Positions 48,836 to 64,000 of a DNA stretch of 64,000 nt are shown in pieces. The notes beneath the pieces are model-generated. The model was given only the letters and a program-made list of their open reading frames with translations, ran no database searches and was not told where the DNA came from. Position 1 is the first letter of the stretch, and each line of letters begins with the position of its first letter. Made by a program: the position numbers and the translations under genes. Location: contig NZ_JRMH01000001.1 of assembly GCF_000803315.1 (NCBI RefSeq), positions 2,728,001 to 2,792,000 on the forward strand, written 5' to 3'. The DNA is from Pectobacterium actinidiae. GTDB lineage: Bacteria; Pseudomonadota; Gammaproteobacteria; Enterobacterales; Enterobacteriaceae.

Positions 48836-48861
48836 AGTGACAAATACCTACGATGATAATG

Positions 48862-49283: not shown

Positions 49284-50342
49284 ATGATATCAGTCTGCAT
49301 GATCGTAAAAAACGAAGCTTTGCACTTAGGCAACGCATTGAAAGAGATTGTAAAATATTTCGACGACATTGTTGTCATAGATACTGGTTCAACTGATGAC
49401 TCAAGGAATATTGCCAGAAACTTTACTGACAAAGTTTATGACTTTGAATGGATATCAGATTTTTCCGCCGCAAGAAATTATTCGCTGCAATTTGCCAAAT
49501 ATGATTGGATTTTAATTATTGATGCCGATGAAGTGATTAATCAAATTGATATGGCAGTGCTTTCCGAACTCATTAACACGCATCCGACACACGTCGGGAC
49601 GGTAGAGATCGCTAGCATTACTAATGATGAAACCTCGGAAGAAATAGATTTAATTCAAGAACGTATAAGTCGGCTTTTCAACAAAAAATATTATGAATTT
49701 TTTGGCATTATCCATGAGCAGATTTGCAAGAAAAATACTGGAGAAGCACCAGATGGACGATTTAATGCACCACTATCGTTCATACATACTGGTTACACAA
49801 AAGAAATCATAGAAAGTAAGAATAAGATCGATCGCAATATAACGTTACTCCAACAGGCCATCGATAAAACAAGTAATGACGCTTATTTACATTACCAGTT
49901 AGGGAAAAGTTACTATCTGGGGAAGAATTATGAGCAAGCAGCACAAAGCTTCGAAACATCACTACACCTGCAAAAAGATATGTATCAGGATTACAATGAA
50001 GTCCTGATTGAATGTTACGGCTATTGTTTAATTAATACAGCACAATATGAGAAAGCACTAGAAATTTTGCAATATGAAAATTTTTGCCCCTCAACGGATT
50101 TTATGTTTTTAAAGGCATTAATACTCATGAATAACGCTGATTTTCAGAATGCTATCGATACATTCCAGCTATGTACAAAAATGGGCCCAGGCCGAAAACA
50201 AGGCGTTGGAACATATAAGGCCAATTACAACATAGCAGTTATACTTGAGTGTTTTGGTATGAAGTCTGAAGCTCTCGACTATTACCAACGGTGCGGGGAT
50301 TATAAGCTAGCGCTTGAGGGGATTGTAAGGATTAAAGCGTAA
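49284..50342 (+). CDS. GT2 glycosyltransferase with C-terminal TPR repeats
   Basis: A 352-residue protein. The GT-A domain (about 1-175) opens MISVCMIVKNEALHLGNAL, has VVIDTGSTDDSRNIA, and the DxD motif IIDADE (Asp80 and Asp82). The C-terminal half (about 185-345) has TPR-like helix pairs (YLHYQLGKSYYLGKNYEQAAQSFETSL, AQYEKALEIL). This SunS-like layout is common in peptide/protein glycosyltransferases, where TPRs bind the acceptor; flagellin is a plausible acceptor given adjacent fliA (inference). It is on the plus strand, convergent with the rest of the island. AT-rich like the island. Confidence 0.82.
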   Translation: MISVCMIVKNEALHLGNALKEIVKYFDDIVVIDTGSTDDSRNIARNFTDKVYDFEWISDFSAARNYSLQFAKYDWILIIDADEVINQIDMAVLSELINTHPTHVGTVEIASITNDETSEEIDLIQERISRLFNKKYYEFFGIIHEQICKKNTGEAPDGRFNAPLSFIHTGYTKEIIESKNKIDRNITLLQQAIDKTSNDAYLHYQLGKSYYLGKNYEQAAQSFETSLHLQKDMYQDYNEVLIECYGYCLINTAQYEKALEILQYENFCPSTDFMFLKALILMNNADFQNAIDTFQLCTKMGPGRKQGVGTYKANYNIAVILECFGMKSEALDYYQRCGDYKLALEGIVRIKA

Positions 50343-50410: not shown

Positions 50411-51253
50411 TTAAAAATCCATATACTCATCATTGAGAACATTATAGTAATTTGAGCTAATCAATGCTTTAACCAAATCAGTTCGACTATACTTATCAAA
50501 AAATGAATAGTTTATTTTGCAGGCAAGCTGCAATCCAGAATCCCTCATCATATAATAGCTTTGGTCACCGCTACCAAGTCTAGGGGCTCTATAATTATTC
50601 AGCAACTCTTGACCATTAAGGTTAAATGTTTCATGAATACCAAATGTATTAAAATGTATTGATTCAAATAATAAACTTAAATGCTTATTACTTGGATGGC
50701 TAATGGTTGAAAAACAGTCTTGATCCTGAGACAAAGAGGATAGATAGTAATCTGAGTAATCAAAAATCAGCTTCCCTGAGTCATACAACGCCTTATATTT
50801 ATCAGTATTTTCTATCAGTGCGGCATATTTTTTATCTTGGGACAAACCAACACTATGGTATTTTTCGATGGCACCTTTATAGTCAAAACCAGAGAGATAC
50901 AAATGCAGAAACCGATAGTCTACATAAACCATCAGGTCAGGCAACTCTTTATCAAAGTAGGCTAATTGTGGGCTAGATACCCGAGACTCCATAGTAGGTA
51001 ACATTTTTATATCAAAGTATCTTTCCAGTGCGGAGGTAGAGAAACTCCCCCATCGTTCTGAGTGATACTGCATAAAAATAACATCACAGGACTCTAATTC
51101 ATGGTAGAAATTTATAACATCAGCTTTCTCTTTTAATTTATAGATTGGTGTATTAAAAATATAGTTATACTCATTACCACTAATATTCTTATTACTTTTC
51201 AGCAACTCACCAATAATTTCTAGCTGACAATTTCCAACTAAAGCGACTCTCAT
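50411..51253 (-). CDS. WcbI-like polysaccharide modification protein
   Basis: A 280-residue protein opening MRVALVGNCQLEIIGELLKS; the GNCQ block, DVIFMQYHSE and a late HPSNKHLSLLFESIH segment fit the WcbI family (putative acetyltransferase or SGNH-like, found in capsule and O-unit loci). The nucleophile-like Cys/Ser of GNCQ and the late His could be catalytic, by analogy only. AAAGG lies six bases before this ATG (five codons inside the longest frame). It follows luxC by 81 bases and is last in the operon. Confidence 0.65.
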   Translation of the reverse strand: MRVALVGNCQLEIIGELLKSNKNISGNEYNYIFNTPIYKLKEKADVINFYHELESCDVIFMQYHSERWGSFSTSALERYFDIKMLPTMESRVSSPQLAYFDKELPDLMVYVDYRFLHLYLSGFDYKGAIEKYHSVGLSQDKKYAALIENTDKYKALYDSGKLIFDYSDYYLSSLSQDQDCFSTISHPSNKHLSLLFESIHFNTFGIHETFNLNGQELLNNYRAPRLGSGDQSYYMMRDSGLQLACKINYSFFDKYSRTDLVKALISSNYYNVLNDEYMDF

Positions 51254-51333
51254 AAAAAACCTTTCCATTATATATAACTACATTCTAAGCGCATAAAAAC
51301 CATTGCGCATAGATTCCCATAAAACTGAAAGCC

Positions 51334-52551
51334 TTATTGAAAAATCATTTTTCGTGATAGCTCTCGAATCAGGTCGTGCCCATCCCATACTAAGGAGAAA
51401 TCCATAGATTTCCCCATTGGAACAATTCTATCGACGCCTTTTGGGCTCGACGAAATGAATGTTTCAAAATCTTCTTTATTTAGACCAAGATAAGTGATTG
51501 TCTGACATTTATCAGAGCAAACAGGTAAAATTTCCGTTATATCCCGAATAGAGTACTCAAGGAAAAAGCCGCTATTATATTTATGATTTATAATATCAGA
51601 GCGCAACGCTTTCAGTTCAACTCTTGTAAGATGATTGGAGCGGTTCTTTATGATTGTCACATCAGAGCACGCCGCAATTTGATAGGATTTAGATAATTTA
51701 CCAACAGCCTGTACAGGTGAAAGAGGATAGTCTCTGATAGATTTATTCTCAACTCTTTCCCAAAAATCAACCTTTGCTGCTTCAATATTATTTCCAATCC
51801 AAAAGACAAATGCTGGGGACGTACACGCATTTTGGTCAGAAAAGTAAGTATCGTTATAAAAATCCCGAACAACCCTTGCTTTATCATCAACAGACAAATA
51901 AAAATCAGCATTGATAATTAATATAGAATGCCTGTCAGAAAATGTTATTTCATTTGCTCTTGGTTTCAGCGCTGACTGCCGGATATTAGCAATGGTTTGA
52001 TCGCCTCCCCAGATCACTCGAGCATCAGCTATAGCAGACAAGCTATCAATAATAGCTCTAACCGTAGGGAATTTCGCCATTAACACATAAGGCTGAATAT
52101 AAGAAAACTCTTCGGAGGCAAGCTCATTTATAGCATCACAGATAACAGAAACCTGAGGAAATTCTTTAGCTGGCAACCTAATAATATTTGAATTACCAGC
52201 TAACAAACCTGCTGCAAAACTAAAAGCAAAGTTAACAGGCACATTAGATGGCGTAGAATGAAAAACGATTCCTTTACCGAATCGTTCAAGAACATCATCG
52301 TATTTGTTTTTTTCTTTCAACAATGAGACTCTTCGACACCAAAAAGCAAACGTTATTACATCCGAATAACCTTTAGCTTTTTTCATCAGCAGTGTAGACA
52401 GCGCATTCAAAAAAGTAATACTTTTGTCATCAAAAATCCTCATAGCCGGAACATCAGGCATTTTTTTCAGAGTGTTTTCATTTCCGACAACATAAGATAT
52501 ATCGCTAATTTCTTGCTGCATAAGTGTCGCTACACCCTCTGAGTTCTGCAT
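51334..52551 (-). CDS. LuxC-like acyl-CoA/acyl-protein reductase
   Basis: A 405-residue aldehyde-dehydrogenase-fold reductase of the LuxC family, which reduces an acyl group (handed over by LuxE) to an aldehyde with NADPH. Cofactor and binding stretches: VFHSTPSNVPVNFAFSFAAGLLAGNSNIIRLPAK (in part), WGGDQTIANIR; catalytic Cys243 in YFSDQNACTSPAFVFW. It is somewhat shorter than Vibrio LuxC (about 480). The long frame opens with GTG 15 codons earlier; AGG seven bases before ATG 52551 favours the start used. It overlaps the luxE 3' end by 47 bases, implying coupling. No luciferase genes (luxAB) are near. Confidence 0.85.
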   Translation of the reverse strand: MQNSEGVATLMQQEISDISYVVGNENTLKKMPDVPAMRIFDDKSITFLNALSTLLMKKAKGYSDVITFAFWCRRVSLLKEKNKYDDVLERFGKGIVFHSTPSNVPVNFAFSFAAGLLAGNSNIIRLPAKEFPQVSVICDAINELASEEFSYIQPYVLMAKFPTVRAIIDSLSAIADARVIWGGDQTIANIRQSALKPRANEITFSDRHSILIINADFYLSVDDKARVVRDFYNDTYFSDQNACTSPAFVFWIGNNIEAAKVDFWERVENKSIRDYPLSPVQAVGKLSKSYQIAACSDVTIIKNRSNHLTRVELKALRSDIINHKYNSGFFLEYSIRDITEILPVCSDKCQTITYLGLNKEDFETFISSSPKGVDRIVPMGKSMDFSLVWDGHDLIRELSRKMIFQ

Positions 52552-53587
52552 TTTTAAGCCTGCCATTAATTTTGAAATATTTACCTTTCCGGCCACAAAG
52601 ACAGTTATCGATACCTAATAAAACGCCCTCATCCTCTGTTAGCAAAGAATGTCCAGGATATGATTGTGGTAAAATGGATACAACCTGGATAATTCCAGTT
52701 TCACCGGGGCTGCAAACAGAAAAATCAGATGGACGACGAATAATTACATCAGAGTAATTACTGGCATGCAAATGTCCATGCTCACATGCCATATAAATGG
52801 ATCCGGTTTGCTCGACCATACCGTAGTAATCATGGATATCGCTAAGATTAAACTGCGCTTTTAGCCTATCTTTAAACTCTGCTTGTGAAACAGCCTCAGA
52901 AGCCAGTTTTTTCCACCCTCCTCCATGAATCAAACATCCATTTGATAAATCAAGCTTGTCGCCTGATCTGACAAATTCTTTATAAAAATGCTGCCAGACC
53001 ATAAATGTAAAACCAAAAAGCAGTACTTTCTTTCCTTCATGCTTTTTCAGAAATGCTTTAATCACAGGTAGATTAATGTTCATTTCATCATCTAAAGCAT
53101 AGGTTCTATCGGTGCCAAAAATAGAAAAACCTAATATACCCGCACCTCTTGCCGAAAACATTGCGCGGTTTTTTACTACAGCTGAACTATCAATGATCAA
53201 CATCGGCATACGAGAGCTTTCAGTAAAGGAAGAAACGATCTTCACCAGTACCTTTTGTTGATTACTTGCTGTTGTTTTATCCAAATAAATTTTGGATACA
53301 GTTTGACCTGTTGTACCTGATGACGTCATCGTTTTGAACACGTCTTCATCAGGAACAGACTTTAATGTTAACTCTTTAAAAAGACTTACAGGCAGAAAGG
53401 GAATATCGTAATAGGAATTGATGTTAAGAAGATCAAAGTTTAACGCATCTAAAATATTTGAATAGGGAGCGCAATGTTTATAGTGCAGACGAGTTAACTC
53501 CCCCAAGCTACGCGTTAAAAAATCATTTTTTTCCTGCTCCCCCATTGAAAATGGGTTTAAACTCAACACACTCTCAAGATTATTCAT
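52505..53587 (-). CDS. LuxE-like acyl-protein synthetase
   Basis: A 360-residue LuxE/PaaK-type adenylating enzyme. It has PFLPVSLFKELTLKSVP, the nucleotide loop TMTSSGTTGQTVSKIYLDK (about residues 86-104), GFTFMVWQHF, IHGGGWKKL, DYYGMVEQTGSIYMAC (adenine motif) and C-terminal GRLKNAELRGCSD with a Cys that in the LuxE family receives the acyl group. With LuxC it forms a fatty acid reductase. Here it follows an independent AMP ligase gene by two bases and overlaps luxC, so it is deep in one operon. Confidence 0.86.
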   Translation of the reverse strand: MNNLESVLSLNPFSMGEQEKNDFLTRSLGELTRLHYKHCAPYSNILDALNFDLLNINSYYDIPFLPVSLFKELTLKSVPDEDVFKTMTSSGTTGQTVSKIYLDKTTASNQQKVLVKIVSSFTESSRMPMLIIDSSAVVKNRAMFSARGAGILGFSIFGTDRTYALDDEMNINLPVIKAFLKKHEGKKVLLFGFTFMVWQHFYKEFVRSGDKLDLSNGCLIHGGGWKKLASEAVSQAEFKDRLKAQFNLSDIHDYYGMVEQTGSIYMACEHGHLHASNYSDVIIRRPSDFSVCSPGETGIIQVVSILPQSYPGHSLLTEDEGVLLGIDNCLCGRKGKYFKINGRLKNAELRGCSDTYAARN

Positions 53588-53589
53588 TA

Positions 53590-54996
53590 TTATTTCCCAA
53601 GTTCGCTATATAATATTTTCCCAGCGTTATTTTTCGGCAAGGAAAAAATATATTTAACCTTGAAAGCAGAGAAATTTATCTTACTTGTTTTAGCAACAAA
53701 ATCCCTGACATTCTGAATACAATCATTATTCGTAATATAAATATCCATGGCATCATCAATACCACAACAGGCGCAATCGATATCTATAAAGTTAGATTTT
53801 ATTAAACGCTCAGTTTCATCAAGGTTTACTCTATTACCATATATTTTTAAAAATCTCTTTTTTCGTCCAATGATATAAAAGAAACCATCGTTATCAAACT
53901 TTGCAACATCTCCAGTAAGCAATCTCCCTTTGAAGTCATCCCCTTCTGAAAGATCGTCGCGCGAACTGGCATACCCCAGACTTACATTATCTCCATGATA
54001 GACAAGCTCTCCTGCGGTTTCAGGTGAGTTTATTAAATTACCGTTTTCATCTATTAAAGAAAATTTTCCGCCAGGAATCGCAATACCCATTGAGCCTATT
54101 TTTTCTAACGTTTTATCTGCCGGCAGGTATCCCATTCTTGCTGTAGCTTCTGTTTGCCCATACATCACAAAGAATTTCTTATTATTATCATACGCATATC
54201 GGGCAATTTTTTCGTGCAACTCTAATGAGAGCTTCCCACCTGCTTGCGTGAGCGTCTTTAAATTGGGAAGATCCCTTCTCATGAATTTTAATTTATCAAG
54301 CATTTCATAAGTGTATGGTACCCCAGCAATAGATGTCACATTGCTCACTTGCAATAGAGTCCAAAATTCCTTTTGCATTAATGTGCTATTCGTTAATACA
54401 ACACTTGCCCCAATGCTAAAATGTGAATTAATTATGGATAGTCCATAGGTATAATTCATTGGTAGAAGAGTGATTGCGCGATCAGTTTTCGTTATGCCAA
54501 GATATTCAACAATCGCTGACGCGTTAGACTCAATATTTTGATAGCTTTGTCTAACTAATTTAGGGCTACCCATCGAACCGGATGTCGTCAACAATAACGC
54601 CAGATCGCTGTTTAAAGAATTATTTTTATTATGATGAATATTTGTCTCTAACAATGCGTACCCGTGTCGTAAAAATACGGTTTTATATGAGAATAGCGAT
54701 TGTCTCTCCACTGGCACATAAATATAATCAGGCTCATAAATATCAATAAGATTGCTCAATAACGTTGAATCAATGTCTTTATCAAGCAGTAATGGAACTG
54801 CATCATGTTTTAATGCTGAAACATATCCAACTATCGCGCCCAGACAATTAGAGCACAAACTAAATATTAAAGCACGTTCCCTTATTTTCTCGCCAAGTTC
54901 ATTACTAAATAAATCTAATTCTTTATAAGAAACTTCGCTACCATTTTCAGTAACAATGGCAGTGTTATGTATGTACTTATTAAAATCAAACAGCAT
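53590..54996 (-). CDS. AMP-forming acyl ligase (ANL superfamily)
   Basis: A 468-residue adenylating enzyme. Core motifs: LLTTSGSMGSPKLVRQ (P-loop), YGQTEATARMGYL (about residue 280), RLLTGDVAKFDNDGFFYIIGRKKRFLKIYGNRVNL (hinge region, in part), and the C-terminal catalytic Lys in KNNAGKILYSEL. It would activate a carboxylic acid and load it onto CoA or, more likely, the operon's carrier protein. It overlaps the end of the hydrolase gene by 11 bases. GGGGAGAG precedes the ATG. Substrate unknown. Confidence 0.87.
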   Translation of the reverse strand: MLFDFNKYIHNTAIVTENGSEVSYKELDLFSNELGEKIRERALIFSLCSNCLGAIVGYVSALKHDAVPLLLDKDIDSTLLSNLIDIYEPDYIYVPVERQSLFSYKTVFLRHGYALLETNIHHNKNNSLNSDLALLLTTSGSMGSPKLVRQSYQNIESNASAIVEYLGITKTDRAITLLPMNYTYGLSIINSHFSIGASVVLTNSTLMQKEFWTLLQVSNVTSIAGVPYTYEMLDKLKFMRRDLPNLKTLTQAGGKLSLELHEKIARYAYDNNKKFFVMYGQTEATARMGYLPADKTLEKIGSMGIAIPGGKFSLIDENGNLINSPETAGELVYHGDNVSLGYASSRDDLSEGDDFKGRLLTGDVAKFDNDGFFYIIGRKKRFLKIYGNRVNLDETERLIKSNFIDIDCACCGIDDAMDIYITNNDCIQNVRDFVAKTSKINFSAFKVKYIFSLPKNNAGKILYSELGK

Positions 54997-55675
54997 GGAT
55001 TCTCTCCCCTATGATAAAGCTATCACCATGACCTGGGAAACATACAATATTTTTATCTAGAGAAAAAAAGAAAGGCAATGCTACATCATTATAGCTTTTA
55101 TGATTTCCACCTGGAAACCTGGTAATGGCCTGGACATCTTTTAATAATGAATCACCAGTAAAAGATATTTTATTATTAACAATAATCGACACGCTTCCTG
55201 CTGAATGACCAGGAATTGACGTAATTCTTATTTCATTCCCCTCCCAAAGATAAATAATTTCATCATCAAAAACAATATCAGCCACACATTTGTAAGATGG
55301 GAAATTTTTGTTAAATTCTTTAGAGAAATCAGTACCATTAACTTTATCTTGTTCTGCAAGAATAAAAGAAATCAAAATTGGCCGGTTATTTCTTTTATCA
55401 AGAATAGATTCTGCACATTTTCTTTGACAGATCAGTGTTGATTTAAATATGGATTTTAGCCAGTTTACACCGGACGTATGATCGGGATGTTCATGCGTTA
55501 ATAAAATCACAACCTCTTTTACATTGCTATTTTTCAACAATATATAAGCACTTTCAGATTCATGAGGATCAACAACTAATGCAGAACATCTCCCTAATAT
55601 GATATACATATTAGAGTTAATATACGGAAAAATAAAGCGGTTGATAGTGATATCACCCGCTTGATAATAAGGCAT
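54986..55675 (-). CDS. Metallo-beta-lactamase-fold hydrolase
   Basis: A 229-residue MBL-fold protein. The metal motif THEHPDH (His61, His63, Asp65, His66) is perfect; further ligands are in SIPGHSAGSVSII, ISFTGDSLLKD and CFPGHGDS, so a two-metal site is intact. Such enzymes often hydrolyse thioesters (glyoxalase II-like) or esters, and a role in releasing or editing the acyl carrier would fit. The start is uncertain: the frame continues upstream and would overlap the NeuB-like gene by 23 bases. Confidence 0.82.
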   Translation of the reverse strand: MPYYQAGDITINRFIFPYINSNMYIILGRCSALVVDPHESESAYILLKNSNVKEVVILLTHEHPDHTSGVNWLKSIFKSTLICQRKCAESILDKRNNRPILISFILAEQDKVNGTDFSKEFNKNFPSYKCVADIVFDDEIIYLWEGNEIRITSIPGHSAGSVSIIVNNKISFTGDSLLKDVQAITRFPGGNHKSYNDVALPFFFSLDKNIVCFPGHGDSFIIGERIHAV

Positions 55676-55679
55676 TTGA

Positions 55680-56720
55680 CTACAACGTCCCGCTAATGTC
55701 ATCTTGGGATATTAACCGATCGGCCTCAACATCTCTGCTTAACACACGTCCAATCAGGCTATCTGTTAATTCCGGAGCAAGACCTGTACCTGGACGCTTA
55801 AAATCCATGTCATTGATCGATAATTTGTGTCCTGCTGGTAAATTTCTAGCAAACACTATGCTTCTGCGCATTTTTTTACGCTGTTCATATTCTTCTACTG
55901 AGACGACTCGCTCTTTATTGCCCATAGCAGAGAAGACACTATGACAGCCATGAACCAAAACCGCCATTTCTTCTGGTTCGATGGCCATGTTGTTGTCCAT
56001 TCCCATCTTACTCTTATCCAATGTAAGATGTTTTTCAACGGCACAGGCTCCTAACGCTGTAGCAGCGACCGCCATCTCAGTTCCTAAAGAGTGATCTGAG
56101 AAACCAACTGGGTAATCCCTGAATATTTCTCTCAGCCCGATTATGTTATTGAGATTTATTGTCTCTGGTTCAGCAGGATAAATTGAAATACAATGCAATA
56201 GAATGATCTTACGATTACCTTGTTTTTCAATAGTATCGATAGCCTTTTTTATTTCATCAAGCTCGGCCATTCCTGTGGAAAGAATGATAGGGACATTCTT
56301 GCTCGCAATATATTCAAGATATGGATAATTATTAACATCTTGAGAAGCAATTTTAATATAGGGAACATTGCACTCATTTACTAAAAAATCTACTTCTCCG
56401 CGAGAATAAGGAGTAGAAGAAAATGAGATACCTATTTCATTGCAATATTTGGATAATTCTAACAGTTCTGTTTCAGGCAATGAAAATTTTGAGATTATCC
56501 GTTTTGCAATAGGATTGCTATCGTAGTAATCCTTTGAGTACAAAGAATCAGTAGACCAGGACTGAAATTTTACACAATCACATCCTGCATCCTTTGCTTT
56601 AGTTATCATATCCTTTGCGACGTCAATATTTCCGTTATGGCTTGAATTTACTTCTGCAATAATATACGGTTTTTTATAAGAACCTATTATTTTACCATCC
56701 CGTAATAAAATATCTGCCAT
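55680..56720 (-). CDS. NeuB-like PEP-dependent sugar acid synthase
   Basis: A 346-residue NeuB/PseI/LegI-type enzyme, which condenses phosphoenolpyruvate with an aldehyde sugar (such as a 2-acetamido-hexose) to make a nonulosonate. The TIM barrel shows YIIAEVNSSHNGNIDVAKDMI, CDCVKFQSW, SSTPYS, IKIASQDVNNYPYLEYIA, ILSTGMA, GFSDHSLG, EKHLTLDKSKMGMDNNMA; the C-terminal SAF domain has RRSIVFARNLPAGHKLS and RPGTGLAPE. All expected parts are present. No CMP-sugar synthetase, epimerase or Pse/Leg pathway genes are in the window. It follows the ThDP gene by 18 bases. Confidence 0.88.
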   Translation of the reverse strand: MADILLRDGKIIGSYKKPYIIAEVNSSHNGNIDVAKDMITKAKDAGCDCVKFQSWSTDSLYSKDYYDSNPIAKRIISKFSLPETELLELSKYCNEIGISFSSTPYSRGEVDFLVNECNVPYIKIASQDVNNYPYLEYIASKNVPIILSTGMAELDEIKKAIDTIEKQGNRKIILLHCISIYPAEPETINLNNIIGLREIFRDYPVGFSDHSLGTEMAVAATALGACAVEKHLTLDKSKMGMDNNMAIEPEEMAVLVHGCHSVFSAMGNKERVVSVEEYEQRKKMRRSIVFARNLPAGHKLSINDMDFKRPGTGLAPELTDSLIGRVLSRDVEADRLISQDDISGTL

Positions 56721-56738
56721 CATATACCTCGATATATT

Positions 56739-58520
56739 TTACTGATCAATTGGATCAATAATCATTTCTGATAAAAAGAGCTCTCTTTCCAGGAAAGGAG
56801 ATTGATCTTCTAAAGGCCTCTGGACAAAGCGCCCTTTCATGTTGCGAACATAAGAGGTATTAATATACTCTTGATCTTCTGGGCTTAAAATTTCACAGAG
56901 GACTGGACCTTCACGGTTCAGGACTTCCTGAATTTTTTGATCAACTACATGCGTGTTTTCAATGAACTCATACTGAATATCGAAACAGTTAGCAACTTTT
57001 TCGAATTCAGGACAAGAGACACCATTATCAGCATCTGTGCCGACAGTTCTTGTTCTAAATAAATCAACCTGTCTCTTTCTAATAACGGCATAACAGTTAT
57101 TATTAATTACCAAAATCTTAATAGGTAAATTATTATGTCTAATTGTCTGCAACTCTTGCAAGTTCATCATTATGGAACCATCACCAACAACAGCAACGAC
57201 TTGTTTCCCTGAACTATAATATGCTCCGATCGCTGCGGGTAATGCGTATCCCATCGCCCCCTGAGATACAGGATGCAAACACTTTTGCTGCTCTTTAAAT
57301 GAAATGGTTGTTGGCATAATCAACTCTTCCAAACCAGAGTCAGTCACAAAAACCGCATCATTATCCAAATGTGCCGAGAGAACATCGGCTAAATAATACA
57401 AATCAACCTTTCCGTCTAATTTATATTTATCTTCGCACTTAGGAAATATATTTTTGTAATGCAAACACTTATCAACCCAGGCACTCCAGCTTGTGTTTAC
57501 ATTTTTGCTGCTAAGTTTATTCAAGAAATCTTTAGCATCAGATAGGATAAGTTTATCTACTGTTAAATTATCCTTTTTATATTCATTTTCATCAATATCA
57601 ATAGCGATAATTTTCGCACATCTCGCAAATTTATCGGGGTTATTTCCCGTCGTCATCGATGTCATACGAGAGCCAACAATAATTAATAAATCGGCATTCT
57701 GCATAGCAAAATTAGCCGCTCTATTCGTCGCCATTGTACCTACAGCACCAATCGACAGTTTTTTATCAGACTTATATATATCCGTAGCTGAGGCTGTATA
57801 AACAACCGGTATTGAATACTTATCAACCACTGAATCTAAAACCGCCTCAGCGCCTGCAGAACGAACGCCGCTACCAATCAAGATAACAGGACGTTCAGAA
57901 GCAGCTAATGCCTCTAGTAAATATTCGATATCGCCATCAGAAGCGGATAATTTATCTTCATTAAATTCGAGTCGCTTTAGTTCATCTTCATCAACTCGCA
58001 TATTCTGAATATCGAGAGGAATATCAATCCATACGGGGCCTTTCCGACCAGAGAGAGCCAAGTGAAAGGCCTTATCCAGCTCCATCGCGATACTTTCAGG
58101 ATCTGAAACCATAACCGCATATTTAGTAATCGGCGTAACCAGACTGATGATATCAGCTTCTTGTTGCCCATAAGTCCTTATAGGCAGCCCAGTATAGGTT
58201 ACCGTTTCCTTTAATGAATTCTGTCCTGAGATCACAACCATCGGGACGTCATCTTGCCAAGCGCAGAGTACAGGAGTAATGGCATTCGTGGAGGCACACC
58301 CTGTAGAAACCAGGCAGGCACCCATTTTATGATTTACCTGAGAATAAGCCATCGCAGCATATGCACCAGCTTGTTCATGATGAACACAGATGCAGTCTAA
58401 CCCTTCCTGCTTGGCGGCAGCGTCAGACAAATAAAGTACCCCTCGGCCCGTTACCATAAATAGGTGTTCAACCCCTTCCAGGTACAGGCGTTTCATAACA
58501 TAATCTGCGACGCGAATCAT
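56739..58520 (-). CDS. Thiamine-diphosphate-dependent enzyme (acetolactate synthase-like)
   Basis: A 593-residue ThDP enzyme of the IlvB family. The activating Glu49 lies in CVHHEQAGAYAAMAYS; the middle domain has PVILIGSGVRSAGAEAVLD; the ThDP/Mg motif GDGSIMMNLQELQ ... LVINNNCY is complete. Such enzymes decarboxylate pyruvate or an oxo acid and add the two-carbon unit to a carbonyl, giving branched sugars (YerE-type) or acetolactate. It is not the housekeeping enzyme: it is in the glycan operon, directly upstream of the NeuB-like gene. AGGAAA SD. Product unknown. Confidence 0.88.
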   Translation of the reverse strand: MIRVADYVMKRLYLEGVEHLFMVTGRGVLYLSDAAAKQEGLDCICVHHEQAGAYAAMAYSQVNHKMGACLVSTGCASTNAITPVLCAWQDDVPMVVISGQNSLKETVTYTGLPIRTYGQQEADIISLVTPITKYAVMVSDPESIAMELDKAFHLALSGRKGPVWIDIPLDIQNMRVDEDELKRLEFNEDKLSASDGDIEYLLEALAASERPVILIGSGVRSAGAEAVLDSVVDKYSIPVVYTASATDIYKSDKKLSIGAVGTMATNRAANFAMQNADLLIIVGSRMTSMTTGNNPDKFARCAKIIAIDIDENEYKKDNLTVDKLILSDAKDFLNKLSSKNVNTSWSAWVDKCLHYKNIFPKCEDKYKLDGKVDLYYLADVLSAHLDNDAVFVTDSGLEELIMPTTISFKEQQKCLHPVSQGAMGYALPAAIGAYYSSGKQVVAVVGDGSIMMNLQELQTIRHNNLPIKILVINNNCYAVIRKRQVDLFRTRTVGTDADNGVSCPEFEKVANCFDIQYEFIENTHVVDQKIQEVLNREGPVLCEILSPEDQEYINTSYVRNMKGRFVQRPLEDQSPFLERELFLSEMIIDPIDQ

Positions 58521-58539
58521 AAAGGTTTCCTAAAAAATA

Positions 58540-59013
58540 TTACTTCGGAAGAAATTTATTCAAAGTATCTGGTACAGCAACAACTAGCTCAATTTGGCAC
58601 GCTAATTCGCCATGAACAAAGCCGGTAGCTTTCCCACTGGCAATTCCCCGACGATAGGAGTTCAATTCCGCAATAATATCCAAGCGGTTTCCCGGAATTA
58701 TCTTCTTCTTAAAATCGGCATTTTTAACAGATAAAAAGCCTGTTTTCTTTCCTTTATTTTCAGGAATAGTTAAAAATGTCATTAAAAAAACTTGTGTTAA
58801 CGTTTCTATTTGAATGAACCCAGGGACAACGGGTTCATCTTCAAAATGGGCAGGAAAAAACCATTCATTATAGGTGAAATTTTTAAACCCTTTCGCACTT
58901 TCCCCGGGAATCGCTTCCTCTATTAAATCTAAAAAAAAGCAAGGATAGCGATTTTGCTGATATTTTTGAATTTCAACAGGAGAGAGGTTTCTTAAAATAG
59001 AAGACTCACTCAT
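58540..59013 (-). CDS. FabZ-like hot-dog acyl-carrier dehydratase
   Basis: A 157-residue hot-dog fold protein. The catalytic pair is kept: His56 in FFPAHFEDEPVVPGFIQIETLTQ and Glu70 (the spacing of 14 is that of FabZ). YPCFFLDLIEEAIPGESAKGFKNF is the FabZ N-terminal strand and KKIIPGNRLDI the later one. It probably dehydrates a 3-hydroxyacyl chain on the carrier protein, or acts as a thioesterase. It starts three bases after the carrier gene stop, with GAGGG, so the two are coupled. Confidence 0.86.
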   Translation of the reverse strand: MSESSILRNLSPVEIQKYQQNRYPCFFLDLIEEAIPGESAKGFKNFTYNEWFFPAHFEDEPVVPGFIQIETLTQVFLMTFLTIPENKGKKTGFLSVKNADFKKKIIPGNRLDIIAELNSYRRGIASGKATGFVHGELACQIELVVAVPDTLNKFLPK

Positions 59014-59015
59014 TA

Positions 59016-59261
59016 TTAACCCTCAGAGATTTCAATATTGTATTTACCTAATATCTCGATCCCTTTTTTGAATGAACTCAAATCAACAATGTCGTCAGTA
59101 TCCAGCATAATGTCAAAGGTATCTTCTATTGCAGCAACCAGTCCCATATGCCCAACAGAGTCCCATGCATCAATGGACTGGTATTTTAGCTCGCTTGCAC
59201 TTTCCGCTTCAATTTCAAATGTTGTAGCAAATGCGTTGGTATATTTCTCTAGGTTAGTCAT
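59016..59261 (-). CDS. Acyl carrier protein
   Basis: An 81-residue acidic carrier protein. The phosphopantetheine Ser35 is in the canonical DSVGHM motif (DAWDSVGHMGLV). It probably carries the acyl intermediates for the adjacent dehydratase, ligase and LuxC/LuxE proteins and for the acyltransferase. It differs from the housekeeping AcpP (DSLDTV). First gene of the packed operon; an 8-bp inverted repeat lies 24 bases upstream. Confidence 0.9.
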   Translation of the reverse strand: MTNLEKYTNAFATTFEIEAESASELKYQSIDAWDSVGHMGLVAAIEDTFDIMLDTDDIVDLSSFKKGIEILGKYNIEISEG

Positions 59262-59284
59262 ATTTTCCTCATAAGATGAAAGAA

Positions 59285-59306
59285 CAAGATTTATGTGTAA
59301 ATCTTG
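59285..59306 (-). promoter_or_regulatory. Inverted repeat before the carrier protein operon
   Basis: CAAGATTT-N6-AAATCTTG, a perfect 8+6+8 inverted repeat 24 bases upstream of the carrier gene. It may be a weak terminator for the neuD-like gene, an operator, or a leader hairpin. Confidence 0.4.
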
Positions 59307-59368
59307 ATTTTAAATAGATGTATTCTGAGTTAAAAAATTAATATACAAATAGGTAAATGAATTGGTTT

Positions 59369-60028
59369 TTATAAAAAAACCTTGCCCTCATCATTTCCTT
59401 TCGTAACACGTGCTGGATTGCCTATTACTACAGAGCATGCCGCAACATCTCTAAATACAGCGGCCCCCATAGATATTATGGCATCATCCCCGACAGTAAT
59501 TTTTTCTTTAATCGTTGCATGCATTCCAACATAAACTCTATCGCCAAAAACAGATGATCCACCAGGTGCGGAATGGGCGGAGAAAACAGAATGGCTACCA
59601 ACAACAATATCATGCCCAAGCAAACTGTATGGCTGAATGAGGCAGTTATTACCAATGTTCACATTACAGTGAATTGACGAATACTCACATAAAACACAAC
59701 CTTCACCTATTATTGCACTGGGTGAGATTCGTGCCGTTGGATCGATCAATGTAGCAATATTCAGTCCATTGCTCTTAGCTTTATTAAAAAGTTTTTCACG
59801 TAAAGAAGGTTCGCCGATAGCAATAATAACCTCATAAGCGTCCTTATTTTTCATTATCGAATCAAAGCTAAATACTTTAGCGCCCAGATTTTCGCCATTA
59901 TTTTCATAGTCATTGATAAAAACAATCTCTGACCAAGATTTTGATTTTATATTTATAGCATTCGCTATATCAAAAAACTCTCTACCCAGACCACCCGAAC
60001 CATAAATAGCTAACATTTTGTTTTTCAT
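59369..60028 (-). CDS. NeuD-type sugar O/N-acyltransferase
   Basis: A 219-residue NeuD/PglD family protein: an N-terminal Rossmann-like domain (MLAIYGSGGLGREFFDIANAI) and a left-handed beta-helix (residues about 90-205) of hexapeptide repeats (IGEGCVLCEYSSIHCNVNIGNNCLIQPYSLLGHDIVVGSH), with His in LLGHD and the acceptor loop near VIGNPARV at the end. It transfers an acyl group, here perhaps from the carrier, onto an amino or hydroxyl sugar. The first eight codons of the longest frame are excluded for lack of SD. Neighbouring VioA-type aminotransferase suggests an amino sugar substrate. Confidence 0.84.
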   Translation of the reverse strand: MKNKMLAIYGSGGLGREFFDIANAINIKSKSWSEIVFINDYENNGENLGAKVFSFDSIMKNKDAYEVIIAIGEPSLREKLFNKAKSNGLNIATLIDPTARISPSAIIGEGCVLCEYSSIHCNVNIGNNCLIQPYSLLGHDIVVGSHSVFSAHSAPGGSSVFGDRVYVGMHATIKEKITVGDDAIISMGAAVFRDVAACSVVIGNPARVTKGNDEGKVFL

Positions 60029-60213
60029 AGAAACACTCAAAGCAAAAATCATTGTGTCAAAAGTGTCTTTTATCTCTATTTAAAATAGATAAAATTTCGT
60101 GAATGTCTCTATTTATTTCAGGAAACGATCATGTCATGCCGAATCCTGTAAGACTCTCATATGTTTATCTTCAGAAAAAAGATAGGCATGATAAAAATAG
60201 ATTATTTAAATCA

Positions 60214-61281
60214 CTATCGAATCTTCATATATAATGTATCACCTTCGATAAAATGATATGCCACTCGAGGATCATTGATTAACTCATCACCAACTTTTTT
60301 CGGCCCATCACCAAATGCCCAGTCATAATCATCAATAAGTACCCAACCATTGCTCTTAACAAGAGGAAACCAATTATCAACATCTTTTTTAGCTTCCTCA
60401 TATTTATGGTTTCCATCTATATGTAGGAGAGCTATTTTTCCCTCTATTTTTACGCATCCGAACTCATCATTACAAATTTCGCCACGCTTCGTAGCGAGCA
60501 GATATTCTGAAATTGCTTTCTCAGAAACAGCGCGAATATAAGTTAGATTTTTCTGTCCAGAGTTATGTGCAAGAAAGCCTGAGAAAACACTATCCCAATT
60601 AACCTGATCGCGAGAGTCATTGACGAGAGCCACTTTATCATCGTTGCCTTGATCACCACTGAGTTCGCCTTCCCAAGGATCGACGCATACAACACTACCA
60701 ATTTCATATCGTTGAGCTAACCAAGATAAAGCAAATCCCGATCGACCTAAAAAGGAACCTATTTCAATGATATCTCCTTTAGGTGTGTCCGTAAATATCG
60801 AACATAAAGATCTCAACTTAACATTATCACTTTGCCCTGGAATATCATTATATTTTATATATAAATTTGCATACTCATTTTCTTTCAATATCACACCGGA
60901 ATTAAAATGATTATTTTTAGATATATCCTTTGTTGTTTCCTTAGCCCATGAAAATGCATCTTTTACATTATTAAAAACAGAATCCAATGGGGGCAAATTA
61001 CAAACTGAATAATCGTATGATATTGTTTCTTTTAATTTATTCAAATACTGCCAGACTACAGTGTGTGGAGAGTAAACATAGTTGATATTATTATGGCGTA
61101 GCATATCTTCAAAATCAGACTGAAAAGATTCATCTGTAATATAAGGAAGATGCTGAGTATTGATATCTTTTTTAGTTTCTGAAGATGCATATATGATGTT
61201 GCCACCAATGGATCTGGCAAAATTTGCGAACACCTTAGACTCAGGCATATTACTAGGGAAAACTAAAAAATTCAAAACCAT
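60214..61281 (-). CDS. Two-part protein with class I SAM methyltransferase domain
   Basis: A 355-residue protein. Residues about 1-100 look like the pre-ATP-grasp lobe of CarB-type proteins (LNFLVFPSNMPESKVFANFARSIGGNIIYA, then HNNINYVYSPHTVVWQYL). The C-terminal half has SAM motif I (GDIIEIGSFLGRSGFALSW), motif II (VVCVDPWEG) and LLHIDGNHKYEEAKKDVDNWFPLV, KSNGWVLIDDYDW as in TylF-like sugar O-methyltransferases. It likely methylates a glycan hydroxyl. GGAGAG precedes this ATG. Confidence 0.75.
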   Translation of the reverse strand: MVLNFLVFPSNMPESKVFANFARSIGGNIIYASSETKKDINTQHLPYITDESFQSDFEDMLRHNNINYVYSPHTVVWQYLNKLKETISYDYSVCNLPPLDSVFNNVKDAFSWAKETTKDISKNNHFNSGVILKENEYANLYIKYNDIPGQSDNVKLRSLCSIFTDTPKGDIIEIGSFLGRSGFALSWLAQRYEIGSVVCVDPWEGELSGDQGNDDKVALVNDSRDQVNWDSVFSGFLAHNSGQKNLTYIRAVSEKAISEYLLATKRGEICNDEFGCVKIEGKIALLHIDGNHKYEEAKKDVDNWFPLVKSNGWVLIDDYDWAFGDGPKKVGDELINDPRVAYHFIEGDTLYMKIR

Positions 61282-61400
61282 ATTCACTCTCCAAATAAAA
61301 TAAAAAGCCAATGAAAGCTTTATTTAAATTAATAATTTAATCTTGCTAGTAAATAAAGACGCAGTGCAAAGATGCTTAACATATATTTATGAAAAACCGA

Positions 61401-62504
61401 TCATTCAAGAATAAACTCGACTATTTTAAATATATCTTCTTCAGATAAGTCAGGGTAAATAGGAAGACATAATACATTATCAGAAATATTCACTGCACTA
61501 GGTAATAAACGTTCCTCTGCCGAGTCCAGACCTCTGTACATAGGAAATGAGCTAATCAGCGGATAAAAATAACGCCGCGAGAATATATTCTTTGTTTTTA
61601 AATGCTCATAAATCTCGTCTCTCTTTTTAGGAAAAGAGTCAGACAAAAATATAGGAAAGTAAGAATAATTCCAAGTAACATCATGTGGAATATTTATTAT
61701 TTTAATTCCCGAGACTTCTTTTAAAAGTTCAGCGTATAAATTATAAACTTCTTTTCTTTTATTCAGCGCGACATCGATATGTTTAATCTGTAGCAATCCA
61801 TATGCAGCCTGTATTTCATTCATCTTACCGTTGATGCCAGGTGCAACAACCGTGACCTCATCAGCAAAACCAAAATTTTTAAGATAATCGATACGTTTTT
61901 TTGTCTTCTTATCAGGGCATATAATAGCACCGCCCTCAACAGTACTGAAAACTTTAGTTGCATGAAAACTTAGAATAGATAGGTCGCCATGATTCAAAAT
62001 ACTGATATTGTTTTTTTTCACGCCAAATGCATGGGCGGCATCATAGATAACTTTCAGTCCATAGTTATCTGCAATCGCTTGAATACGTTCAACATCGCAA
62101 GGAATACCATAACAATGCACAGGCATAATAGCTGAAGTGTCAGAAGTAATCGCTTGCTCAATCTTATCAGGATCGAGGTTGCACGTAAGAGGGTCAATAT
62201 CGACAAATACGGGTTTTAGTCCATTCCATAAAAGCGAGTGTGAAGTCGCGACAAAGGAATAAGGAGTAGTAATGACCTCACCGGTAATACGCAATGTCTG
62301 CAATGCAGTTAATAGAGCCAAAGTACCATTTGAAAAAAGACTGATATACTCGACTCCTAAGTATTTGGCCAGTTCTTGCTCAAGCTGCTCATGTAGAGGT
62401 CCACCATTCGTTAATCTTTTATTTTCCCATATTTTTTCCAAATAAGGAATAAACTCCTCAAGCGGAGGAAGCAGTGGACTGGTGACATATATTTCATTTT
62501 TCAT
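61401..62504 (-). CDS. DegT/DnrJ/EryC1/StrS sugar aminotransferase (VioA-like)
   Basis: A 367-residue PLP-dependent aminotransferase for NDP-4-keto sugars. The PLP lysine is Lys184 in LSFHATKVFSTVEGGA, Asp155 in IYDAAHAFG contacts the pyridine ring, and GTLALLTALQ holds the phosphate. The start MKNEIYVTSPLLPPLEEFIPYLEKIWENKRLTNGGPLHEQLE resembles VioA, which makes dTDP-4-amino-4,6-dideoxyglucose (viosamine), a sugar found in flagellin glycans of Pseudomonas. AAGGG SD. The nucleotide sugar substrate is inferred. Confidence 0.88.
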   Translation of the reverse strand: MKNEIYVTSPLLPPLEEFIPYLEKIWENKRLTNGGPLHEQLEQELAKYLGVEYISLFSNGTLALLTALQTLRITGEVITTPYSFVATSHSLLWNGLKPVFVDIDPLTCNLDPDKIEQAITSDTSAIMPVHCYGIPCDVERIQAIADNYGLKVIYDAAHAFGVKKNNISILNHGDLSILSFHATKVFSTVEGGAIICPDKKTKKRIDYLKNFGFADEVTVVAPGINGKMNEIQAAYGLLQIKHIDVALNKRKEVYNLYAELLKEVSGIKIINIPHDVTWNYSYFPIFLSDSFPKKRDEIYEHLKTKNIFSRRYFYPLISSFPMYRGLDSAEERLLPSAVNISDNVLCLPIYPDLSEEDIFKIVEFILE

Positions 62505-62526: not shown

Positions 62527-64000
62527 TTATCGTGGCAGCCAATTTTTCTTTATAATTTCCAGATTTTTTTGATTAATCATCCAGTTTTCTTGAATTTCAC
62601 TTTTTAACACTGCACCAACTTTCCTGGCCGCATCAACATCATTGATATATTGACTCATTGCTGAAGACCAGTCTTTGTATCTATTTTTCACAACATTAAC
62701 GGAAAGTCTGCTTTTATAACATAAAACATCACTGCATATAATCGGTATTCCACAGATACCTAACTCTAATAGACGAATATTACTGCGGGCTCGATTAGCA
62801 TTATTATCAGCCAGCGGTGCTATTGCGAAATCAAGATTAAGAGAAGCTAGTTGCTGAGGGTAATGTGTAAAACCGTGATAACGATGATACTCATGAATAA
62901 ATGGTTTCAGTTTAGGAGGGTAAGCGCCCAAAAACACCCATGTAACGTGGTGGAAAAAGTCACGGATGACGTTAGAAACTAATTCAATATCTTCATCACT
63001 GAGATCCTGTGTTATACACCCAACACGAGGTTTATCGCTTGTCCTACGTGTGAAGGCAAGGTCATTCCAAAAATGGGGTAAATATGTAGGTAAAACCTGA
63101 ATATCGTGATGCACTCTGCCATATTGCTCTGCTAACACTTCAGACCCGACAATCACTCTATCAAATGGAGCCAAGTCTTCTTTTATTTTATTCAAATGTT
63201 CTTTTTTATTTTTACTATCATCAAACTTGTTTGATTCATAATAGTTCATGTCATAAATAGAAAAACAATCTTTCATCGACTTGAAATCAATTATCTTTCT
63301 ACTTTGAATATGATTCTGAGTGATAATAACATCAGGCTTTGTTTGCAAAAAATCAGATATAATAAGAGGTTCTGAAGCCACTGCACCTTCAACAACTCCA
63401 TTGTATCTCATTTTATAAAAAGGTTCGTCTAGCCGATATATCTCCATCGGATTAGAACTGCCAGAAAACATCATTATACGGGGCAAGCGTTGAGGCTCTA
63501 GCGATAACTCACGCGGCCTGATATATTTTTCTATTCTATAATTTCTTGTTAATGACAAATTTTTATTATAGGCAGGATCATTAGCAATGACATCACCCCA
63601 CTTATGATAGATAGCCTTCACTTGTTCTGAGCAAGTTTCATTTTTTCTATCATTTTTTTCTGGAGATAAATCAGTCGCGACAATAGAGTAAGGAGTCCAA
63701 ACAGAAAGATAACCTGCGTCACGAATTTTTAGGCTTAAGTCGATATCGGCAAGATATCCCTCAGTCAGTGACTCGTCTATGCCACCAACATCTTGATAAA
63801 CAGAACGTCTTACAAGTAAACATAATTCGGGAAGTACACTATAATTTTGTTCTATTGCTAAACGATGCATATAACCAGGGGCTGAATAATGGCTTCCAAT
63901 AAAAGGACTTTCTGCTACACCATTGAGCCCAAGCACTATGCCTGCTGAATAAACTTTCTCATTGAGATTAATCACTTTGCTGCCAACGCATCCAACCTCA
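62527..64000 (-). CDS. Large GT2/GT4-type glycosyltransferase (partial, N terminus outside)
   Basis: The frame is open across the window edge: the last codons read EVGCVGSKV before INLNEKVYSAGIVLGLNG, so the protein begins outside. The visible 491 residues hold the C-terminal half of a GT-A domain (VGGIDESLTEGYLADIDLSLKIRDAGY) and then a GT-B-like domain (YDMNYYESNKF, CITQDLSDEDIELV, FAIAPLADNNANRARSNIRLLELGICGIPIICSD in part), the arrangement of large two-domain glycosyltransferases in flagellin and surface glycan loci. It precedes the aminotransferase gene by 22 bases. Confidence 0.85.
   Translation of the reverse strand, partial: EVGCVGSKVINLNEKVYSAGIVLGLNGVAESPFIGSHYSAPGYMHRLAIEQNYSVLPELCLLVRRSVYQDVGGIDESLTEGYLADIDLSLKIRDAGYLSVWTPYSIVATDLSPEKNDRKNETCSEQVKAIYHKWGDVIANDPAYNKNLSLTRNYRIEKYIRPRELSLEPQRLPRIMMFSGSSNPMEIYRLDEPFYKMRYNGVVEGAVASEPLIISDFLQTKPDVIITQNHIQSRKIIDFKSMKDCFSIYDMNYYESNKFDDSKNKKEHLNKIKEDLAPFDRVIVGSEVLAEQYGRVHHDIQVLPTYLPHFWNDLAFTRRTSDKPRVGCITQDLSDEDIELVSNVIRDFFHHVTWVFLGAYPPKLKPFIHEYHRYHGFTHYPQQLASLNLDFAIAPLADNNANRARSNIRLLELGICGIPIICSDVLCYKSRLSVNVVKNRYKDWSSAMSQYINDVDAARKVGAVLKSEIQENWMINQKNLEIIKKNWLPR

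Follow-up and report, generated by a model that had tools for sequence, protein, structure and literature searches.

A conserved ACP, LuxE/LuxC, NeuB-like and ThDP gene cassette as a candidate acyl-building module in a Pectobacterium flagellin glycosylation island

A Pectobacterium genome carries a low-GC island for flagellin glycosylation, flanked by fliA and fliC. Within it, eight genes (51334 to 59261 of the window, i.e., the whole 64,000-nucleotide stretch analysed) and an adjoining neuD-type gene form, by sequence comparison, a conserved cassette that recurs across unrelated bacterial groups. We see an even chance that this cassette is an exchangeable acyl-building module in a viosamine-type island, its reactions being read from the enzyme families. 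Its likely product is an unusual side group of the flagellum-coating sugar, made by a route not yet described.

All eight reading frames were open on the minus strand where the original prediction had placed them, with a corrected start for LuxC, and none contains a frameshift or stop. By their spacing, they form a putative operon. For the LuxC-type acyl reductase (51334..52551; PF05893, 93 bits; DQNAC), the longest frame begins at GTG 52596, and ATG 52551, which overlaps LuxE by 47 bases, is the likelier start. The LuxE-type acyl-protein synthetase (52505..53587; PF04443, 188 bits) has its C-terminal Cys motif RGCSD, and the AMP-forming acyl ligase (LIG; 53590..54996; PF00501, 127 bits) its signature, TGD and GK motifs. 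The glyoxalase II-like MBL-fold hydrolase (54986..55702; PF00753, 46 bits; HEHPDH) is a putative thioesterase or lactonase. The NeuB-like PEP-condensing enzyme (55680..56723) combines NeuB (PF03102, 264 bits) and SAF (38 bits) domains. The ThDP-dependent C-C bond enzyme (56739..58520) has three TPP domains (113, 113 and 98 bits), the Glu and a canonical GDG...NN motif. The FabZ-like dehydratase (58540..59013; FabA-like PF07977, 60 bits) retains its His and Glu and reaches 98 bits with the FabZ model, slightly below the cut-off of 113. The acyl carrier protein (ACP; 59016..59261) has no Pfam match and a weak NCBIfam ACP match (19.9 bits, cut-off 66), and its DSxGHM motif with the Ser is present. 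These motif residues are presumably catalytic as in their families, and the predicted integrity of catalytic residues was borne out for those checked across the window proteins. Because the DegT (see below), NeuB and FabZ proteins score below the NCBIfam cut-offs, their substrates are guesses. Bioluminescence was rejected as a function: LuxC and LuxE reach 43 and 70 bits with the bioluminescence equivalogs (cut-offs 750 and 550), and the Pfam scan of proteins lying between 46086 and 63975 showed no luciferase, as the original prediction had said.

The assignment of the cluster to a flagellar island was correct, with fliA on one side and fliC and fliD beyond the window end on the same contig, and the position supports a role in flagellin modification. 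The island encodes glycosyltransferases, and its GC content (0.32-0.42 per kb from 49 to 64 kb) differs from that of the preceding chromosome (mostly 0.45-0.55 from 19 to 49 kb). Sigma-70 domains mark the presumed fliA, which lies with the presumed fliZ at 47394-48835; these two names, like the label WecD-like, are our own presumptive assignments. Upstream of the ACP gene, all on the minus strand, follow a NeuD/PglD/VioB-type sugar N-acyltransferase (59369..60052; above the cut-off of TIGR03570, NeuD/PglB/VioB), a SAM methyltransferase (60214..61311; listed start TTG, first in-frame ATG 10 codons downstream), a DegT/VioA-like sugar aminotransferase (61401..62504; below the cut-offs of the aminotransferase models) and the 3' part of a 1167-aa protein (62527..64000, running on to L026:3031). 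The 482 aa of the latter inside the window had no Pfam match at 1e-3; the protein resembles the adjacent 1255-aa GT2 protein (L026:3176-6943) and was taken as a glycosyltransferase. The next gene is fliC (L026:7260-8150). One dTDP-glucose 4,6-dehydratase in the genome scores above the curated cut-off. One tRNA and one Rfam sRNA match lie within 45000-64000, and PADLOC gave no defence-system match for three cassette proteins. Our literature search found no flagellin structure for the strain.

The cluster comparison proposed in the original prediction recovered the gene set as an ordered cassette, also in other phyla, which argues for a grouping beyond chance. In an Elusimicrobiota genome (L081, G899), the order NeuD-ACP-FabZ-ThDP-NeuB-MBL-LIG-LuxE-LuxC is identical to that in the window. 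A Rhodospirillales MAG (L004/L067) has FabZ-ThDP-NeuB-ACP-LIG-LuxE-LuxC, and Syntrophomonas palmitatica has FabZ-ThDP-NeuB on one contig end and NeuB-ACP-LIG-LuxE-LuxC-MBL on another, the ends splitting NeuB at residue 266/267. An N-acyltransferase lies directly upstream of (ACP-)FabZ in all five FabZ-ThDP-NeuB loci: NeuD in the window and L081, GNAT in L066 and L068, and GNAT-like in L067, where the protein has no Pfam match and the assignment rests on 30% identity to L008. L091 and L092 lack FabZ and MBL, and L091 also a visible acyltransferase. LuxE-LuxC gene fusions occur at L022:3636-5966 and L089:16615-18918.

A search for the ThDP gene gave a match in 1 of the 25 Pectobacterium species genomes covered. 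Among 398 genomes of the phylum there were five matches, G000 and four at 40-41%; the order of Syntrophomonas gave 2 of 63, and the phylum of G760 gave 10 of 149 (one at 63%, nine at 37-41%). Megablast gave no copies elsewhere among plasmids or ecoli_genomes, and tblastn with the ThDP protein (1e-100) none among plasmids, search sets from which very near records may be absent. The low GC and the single match among the 25 Pectobacterium genomes would suit a horizontally acquired block that is silent or decaying and has no present product. We consider such a block very unlikely, as the eight genes are without frameshift or stop, their motifs are intact, and ThDP proteins 94-99% identical are present in several named Pectobacterium species.

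We observed a block exchange with a related Pectobacterium island (L115), which has a different NeuD-ACP-SDR-LIG-LuxE-LuxC block at the cassette position. The exchanged block (51275..61772) is bounded by conserved flanks that match L115 at 85.8% and 81.2% identity, and inside it there are only patches of 64-68% identity. Both the methyltransferase and the 3' end of the aminotransferase gene fall within it. The proteins flanking the block are 75-88% identical to those of L115, whereas counterparts within it reach 42-65%. On one side, outside the block, these are a GT2 glycosyltransferase with TPRs (49284..50342, plus strand; 87%) and a WcbI-like polysaccharide biosynthesis protein (50411..51268, minus strand; 88%); on the other, the aminotransferase (75%) and the 1167-aa protein (82%). 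The 1255-aa protein was compared over residues 648-1227, where L115 begins. FabZ, ThDP, NeuB, MBL and the methyltransferase had no match in L115 at E 1e-3, the methyltransferase had none in L114-L116, and the large glycosyltransferases had none in L114 and L116. As L115 retains both the large glycosyltransferases and two distal genes, along with most of the aminotransferase, while its NeuD block differs, the sugar N-acyltransferase was exchanged along with the cassette. This is the one exchanged pair seen with both flanks conserved.

We infer the following pathway. The DegT protein would aminate dTDP-4-keto-6-deoxyglucose to a 4-amino sugar. The ligase and LuxE would activate an acid, which LuxC would reduce to an aldehyde, and condensation of the aldehyde with PEP by the NeuB-like enzyme would yield a 4-hydroxy-2-oxo acid. 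This acid would be decarboxylated by the YerE/JanthE-like ThDP enzyme, which would also form a second C-C bond. FabZ may then (de)hydrate an ACP-bound intermediate, and MBL may hydrolyse a thioester or lactone. The acyl group should end on the cassette's own ACP, from which the NeuD/VioB-type enzyme would move it to the 4-amino nitrogen, and the methyltransferase and large glycosyltransferases would complete the glycan on flagellin. Each of these reactions and their order, as well as the starter, the ThDP acceptor and the final structure, are predicted from gene content. Use of the product as an N-acyl group leaves the ThDP acceptor unexplained because a keto sugar is the normal acceptor of YerE-like ThDP enzymes, and the product may have no carboxyl for the ACP.

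Among the closest known systems is the viosamine island of P. syringae, for which the available part of PMC3927599 describes vioA, vioM, vioT (1173 aa), vioB, acp, vioS and vioR, with mutants in vioA, vioB, vioT or vioR lacking modified viosamine. By family, both islands share the flagellin link, a VioA-like aminotransferase, a VioB-type acyltransferase, an ACP and a methyltransferase; VioT, as far as that text describes it, agrees with the window glycosyltransferase (~1170 aa) only in size, and the likeness of the two islands is one of description. According to the same partial source, P. syringae has a KAS III (vioS) and a ketoreductase (vioR), whereas the window has FabZ, ThDP, NeuB-like, MBL, ligase, LuxE and LuxC instead. 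Neither a KAS III nor an SDR/ketoreductase, the pair that makes the 3-hydroxybutanoyl group in the viosamine-type island, turned up in the scanned island proteins or in a tblastn search of 45001-64000.

The ThDP protein gave JanthE (8rph, E 8e-112), a YerE-like ketone carboligase, as its best PDB match, so that a YerE-like enzyme is its closest solved relative and ketone carboligation is its putative activity. With the YerE-like lyases (YerE, ErwE, JanthE) it has in common the ThDP fold and a partner enzyme that should produce 2-oxo acids. It differs in its GDG motif (CDG in JanthE), in adjoining ACP/LuxE/LuxC and an N-acyltransferase without CDP-glucose genes, and in forming its own clade, separate in the tree from ten sister proteins. 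In this clade, NeuB adjoins ThDP in six of seven loci, and the seventh (L092) has an HMGL-type aldolase. Sister-type ThDP was found in 15 genomes, ten of them examined with gene context (G521, G854, G867, G964 and G987 were left out; a weak local ThDP match in L090, absent in tblastn, was uncounted). Pyruvate/PEP aldol-type enzymes lie near the sister genes in 8 of these 10 loci, which supports the NeuB-ThDP pairing; an acetylating acetaldehyde dehydrogenase is also present in two. Moreover, the available text of PMC12247030 reports that the P. atrosepticum enzyme ErwE uses 4-hydroxy-2-oxo acids, the product class expected from PEP-aldehyde condensation. The JanthE match, the sister loci and these ErwE substrates, taken from that partial text, lend support to the original idea of an aldehyde followed by C3 extension.

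The same relatives bear on the main rival, a YerE-type branched-chain sugar, which is close to the original idea. Here, the LuxE/LuxC aldehyde and PEP would be joined by NeuB, the ThDP enzyme would, in the manner of YerE and ErwE, attach the hydroxyacyl group to a nucleotide 4-keto-6-deoxy sugar at its keto carbon, and the ACP would merely feed LuxC. The JanthE match fits, as do the reported preference of ErwE for 4-hydroxy-2-oxo acids with CDP-4-keto-3,6-dideoxyglucose (PMC12247030, available text), RfbF in five of the ten sister loci examined and one sister locus (L083) with aldehyde dehydrogenase, aldolase, ThDP and RfbF-like genes together. However, RfbF, a CDP-glucose gene of branched-sugar loci, was found in none of the seven cassette-clade ThDP loci and none of the 34 LuxE+LuxC loci surveyed, the two ThDP clades stand apart, and in the block exchange the N-acyltransferase changed together with the cassette, whereas most of the aminotransferase and the large glycosyltransferases were kept. 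We regard a branched sugar as possible at roughly one chance in four. Of the originally predicted branched or acyl-extended sugar, we thus favour the latter, as an ACP-borne acyl group on an amino sugar, over the former.

The NeuB-like protein raises the question whether it makes a nonulosonic acid of the sialic, pseudaminic or legionaminic type, to which the ACP module would add an acyl group. Its NeuB and SAF domains and conserved Lys, Gln and His residues are common to NeuB/SpsE/PseI synthases, and L099 has an ACP-SDR-LIG-LuxE-LuxC module next to true PseI, PseG and PseF genes, all above their NCBIfam cut-offs. The cassette protein, however, scores 315.9 with NeuB (cut-off 399.65) and 261.4 with PseI (cut-off 340.25), whereas PseI of L095 and L099 reaches 485.6 and 493.6. 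Unlike these synthases, it has its own signature (NSSHNG, KFQSWS, IAS[MQ][DE], GMDN), departs from the L095/L099 PseI at several motif positions and is linked to LuxC modules, with no CMP-activation partner found. PseG and PseF queries gave nothing within 45001-64000. The two PF02348 CTP-transferase matches in the genome (L101:1489-2241 and L108:7644-8369) both lie above KdsB subfamily cut-offs, leaving no NeuA/PseF/LegF-type CMP-nonulosonic acid synthetase among them. As this is also the sole NeuB in the genome, a nonulosonic acid is highly improbable, and we rejected it as the main reading on the cut-offs, CTP-transferases and motifs.

The LuxE+LuxC survey covered 34 loci picked by LuxC or ThDP similarity (stretches of 5 to 21 kb): 22 of 24 of a first set (without L019 and L024, whose LuxE lies outside the stretch), 10 fetched of 32 non-own genomes matched, L081 and the window; L067, which repeats L004, and L114-L116 were uncounted. 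RfbF, RfbG (on L069), PseG, PseF, PseI, RmlA and aldolases were identified by family models. A recognised N-acyltransferase occurs in 22 of the 34 loci, some stretches being short. MBL was found in three and FabZ in four, so LuxE/LuxC modules do not generally require either.

Islands with ACP, ligase, LuxE and LuxC are already published. Those of De Maayer & Cowan 2016 (PMC4875605), between fliA and fliC or near flagellins, and the Aeromonas Group II islands (PMC7874193), near flagellins, share these genes with the window, as far as the available parts of both papers describe them; a Dickeya zeae island (PMC7575072) shares them and has tktA-tktB. The ACP-FabG-ligase-LuxE-LuxC islands have FabG, whereas in the window FabG was not found and NeuB-like, YerE-like ThDP, FabZ and MBL proteins occur instead. 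The available part of PMC4875605 lists FabZ for a single strain within one FGI type, possibly but not necessarily the window island. Both sources, in these parts, propose a liposugar, in which fatty-acid-synthesis-like genes would produce or shorten a fatty acyl chain on the glycan; in the window, NeuB and ThDP would then serve a separate sugar. ACP, FabZ, ligase, LuxE and LuxC are indeed fatty-acid-type enzymes, yet no KAS or reductase was seen among the Pfam-scanned island proteins. NeuB and ThDP sit inside the ACP-to-LuxC run in the window and in other phyla and are unlikely to be separate from it; hence, we judge the liposugar improbable. As originally stated, no description of or pathway for the full set was found in our literature search. 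Treponema denticola is said to have an acylated flagellin glycan, a possible parallel; we found no relevant paper and did not use it as evidence.

In the cassette, LuxE/LuxC form one conserved unit with an N-acyltransferase and two enzymes of C-C bond formation. In the available parts of the literature found, LuxE/LuxC in flagellin islands were noted as 'fatty acid' genes with no assigned reaction. Tentatively, and with less confidence than in the acyl module itself, we propose a malonyl-independent acyl route from an acid via LuxE/LuxC to an aldehyde, through PEP aldol addition and ThDP carboligation to the ACP and the amino sugar, together with a modular LuxE/LuxC family. If true, LuxE/LuxC modules across bacteria would have an interchangeable slot for C-C enzymes (split transketolase, HMGL aldolase, NeuB-like, YerE-like ThDP or KAS III). 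The cassette would also assign a role to a NeuB subfamily that databases currently annotate as sialic acid synthase. A partner aldol enzyme may often supply YerE-like ThDP enzymes, as the sister loci suggest; this could aid the search for their physiological substrates. The pathway is definite and testable; it implies that flagellin, a protein recognised by plants, carries an acyl group not described so far.

All eight ORFs of the cassette, predicted at 51334..59261 on the minus strand, are open and overlap or nearly touch each other. Only the start of LuxC has to be revised: its ORF is open, but ATG 52551 is a better start than GTG 52596. The encoded families are LuxC, LuxE, an AMP-forming acyl ligase (LIG), an MBL-fold hydrolase (MBL), NeuB plus SAF, a three-domain TPP enzyme (ThDP), a FabZ-like protein and an ACP. 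The motifs with the catalytic residues of these families are all intact in the window, as had been claimed. They are also intact in the relatives of the cassette, save for single changes (e.g., in the ligase motifs of locus L091) and regions truncated in the translation.

The cassette sits in a low-GC region. One flank carries a gene that is presumably fliZ, together with fliA, and then genes for a GT2-TPR glycosyltransferase and a WcbI-like protein. The other flank encodes a NeuD-type acyltransferase, a methyltransferase, a DegT aminotransferase and two large proteins, one of 1167 aa and one of 1255 aa; the latter has GT2 domains, and the former is similar to it. After the large-protein genes, fliC and fliD follow just past the window end. 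Elsewhere in the window, positions 46091-46284 match the Yersinia sRNA family Ysr251 in Rfam (142 bits), on the strand opposite a PhoH-like gene.

The gene set is a real, conserved unit. Cluster comparison had been proposed as a check, and the ordered set indeed recurs beyond Pectobacterium. Searching species-representative contigs with LuxC yielded 24 loci. In L004, from a Rhodospirillales MAG, the order is FabZ-ThDP-NeuB-ACP-LIG-LuxE-LuxC, with 53-75% identity. L081 has NeuD-ACP-FabZ-ThDP-NeuB-MBL-LIG-LuxE-LuxC, the order of the window. Its genome (G899) shares a phylum with a Proruminimicrobium MAG, and the ThDP protein of L081 differs very little from one named Endomicrobium; Proruminimicrobium and Endomicrobium both belong to the Elusimicrobiota. 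In Syntrophomonas palmitatica, two contig ends carry FabZ-ThDP-NeuB and NeuB-ACP-LIG-LuxE-LuxC-MBL, respectively. As the two NeuB pieces are complementary (residues 2-266 and 267-342), we read both ends as one locus split by assembly. Partial or altered sets occur in L068 (GNAT-FabZ-ThDP-NeuB; from the genome that also has the Lachnospiraceae locus L016), in L091 (LIG-LuxE-LuxC-SDR-FabH-ACP-ThDP-NeuB plus a transketolase pair) and in L092 (ThDP, LIG, ACP, LuxC and LuxE plus HMGL, SDRs and a transketolase pair). Among 120 listed NeuB entries, 23 have a longest contig equal in size to that of one of 120 listed ThDP entries, which fits NeuB/ThDP linkage in many metagenome contigs but is no proof of it.

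The best solved relative of the window ThDP protein is 8rph (E 8e-112). This is JanthE, which is YerE-like and joins 2-oxo acids to ketones (PMC12188165). The related ErwE of P. atrosepticum is described as preferring 4-hydroxy-2-oxo acids, with erwiniose as product (PMC12247030). A YerE-type branched sugar is the main alternative end product. In a quick tree of 27 ThDP proteins, which includes two long branches, the six non-window cassette loci and ten sister loci form separate branches (SH-aLRT 100 each). RfbF occurs in 5 of the ten sister loci examined, and neither LuxE nor LuxC in any. Eight of the ten encode a pyruvate/PEP aldol-type enzyme: HpcH/HpaI in L083, L084, L082 and L098 (weak matches in the last two), NeuB family in L086 and L100, HMGL-type proteins below the 4-hydroxy-2-oxovalerate aldolase cut-off in L069 and L084, and proteins over that cut-off in L083 and L097; none was seen in L085 and L087. 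At L083:5634-10442, which also matches RfbF, and L097:299-5051, the ThDP gene lies beside genes for this aldolase and an acetylating acetaldehyde dehydrogenase, both over NCBIfam cut-offs. These genes probably encode pathways that supply the donor for ErwE-like branched sugars. At L086:6328-7833, the immediate neighbour of the YerE-like ThDP gene encodes a NeuB-family protein that also has a cupin domain.

The gene content of the sister loci thus points to a recurring scheme of aldehyde source, C3 aldol addition and ThDP ligation, which LuxE/LuxC, the NeuB-like enzyme and ThDP of the cassette would fit. The cassette is therefore a plausible aldehyde-extension pathway with predicted reactions, and this part of the original prediction is strengthened. 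The cassette NeuB subfamily keeps conserved Lys, Gln and His positions and has its own signature (NSSHNG, KFQSWS, GMDN). It is the sole NeuB of the genome, and both CTP-transferases found there are KdsB-like. The second one is encoded in an O-antigen locus (L108:5389-8369, C1 about 1317-1320 kb) with a HAD hydrolase and an HMGL/4-hydroxy-2-oxovalerate-aldolase-like protein, suggesting a CMP-activated ulosonic acid made via a different aldolase.

Among 34 loci with both LuxE and LuxC, we found a ligase in 31, an ACP in 29, an N-acyltransferase and an SDR in 22 each, and NeuB in 10, a count that includes PseI of L095 and of L099 as well as an edge fragment from L016. ThDP (5), FabZ (4), MBL (3), HMGL (2) and FabH (2) are rarer, and RfbF is absent from all 34. 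Fusions of LuxE and LuxC in one reading frame (L022:3636-5966, 776 aa; L089:16615-18918, 767 aa) support a joint action of the two proteins. Split transketolase pairs lie inside 7 of these 34 LuxE/LuxC modules, in several unrelated genomes (e.g., L088:12367-14153 in G097, L089:3257-5116, L091:9936-11730 and L006 from 1011). They match a tktA-tktB pair reported for Dickeya zeae.

Flagellin glycosylation islands with Acp, LuxE, LuxC, CaiC and FabG, and FabZ in one strain, have been described, and a liposugar was suggested (De Maayer and Cowan, PMC4875605). Aeromonas Group II islands share this core (PMC7874193). Neither the combination of NeuB, ThDP and LuxE/LuxC nor an assigned pathway was found in searches of the open-licence PMC literature.

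A precedent is the viosamine island of Pseudomonas syringae pv. tabaci, reported with vioA, vioM, vioT (1173 aa), vioS, vioB, vioR and acp. Mutants lacking vioA, vioB, vioT or vioR have flagellin glycans devoid of the modified viosamine, which is acylated with an N-(3-hydroxy-1-oxobutyl) group (PMC3927599). VioA, VioM, VioB and ACP have counterparts in the window at the family level, and VioT has one by size only. Unlike in that island, KAS III and ketoreductase were not found in the window.

Within Pectobacterium, the cassette region appears exchangeable. The window ThDP protein shares 99% identity with proteins that bear the name Pectobacterium, in line with a Pectobacterium host. Of 25 species genomes of this genus, 1 (our own) has the ThDP gene and 4 (our own and three others) have LuxE. 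One of these three holds L115, whose flanks match those of the window: 83% for the 1255-aa protein (residues 648-1227 only, as L115 begins there), 82% for the 1167-aa protein, 75% for DegT, 88% for WcbI and 87% for GT2-TPR. The genes in between reach 42% (NeuD), 53% (ACP), 53% (LIG), 65% (LuxE) and 44% (LuxC). The L115 block additionally holds an SDR, and FabZ, ThDP, NeuB, MBL and the methyltransferase have no match in it at E 1e-3. DNA homology ends at about 51274 and restarts within the DegT gene, at about 61773; the interval holds nothing more than patches of 64-68%. L114 and L116 carry an alternative module of the L115 kind (NeuD-ACP-SDR-LIG-LuxE-LuxC); their flanks differ more, and the large glycosyltransferases have no match in either.

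The window and L115 thus share the large glycosyltransferases and most of the aminotransferase, while the acyltransferase and the acyl-building genes change together. Because of this joint exchange, the cassette probably makes an acyl group for the amino sugar. Seen in one pair, it is the strongest argument for such a role. As the end product, an amino sugar carrying such an acyl group is more probable than a branched sugar.
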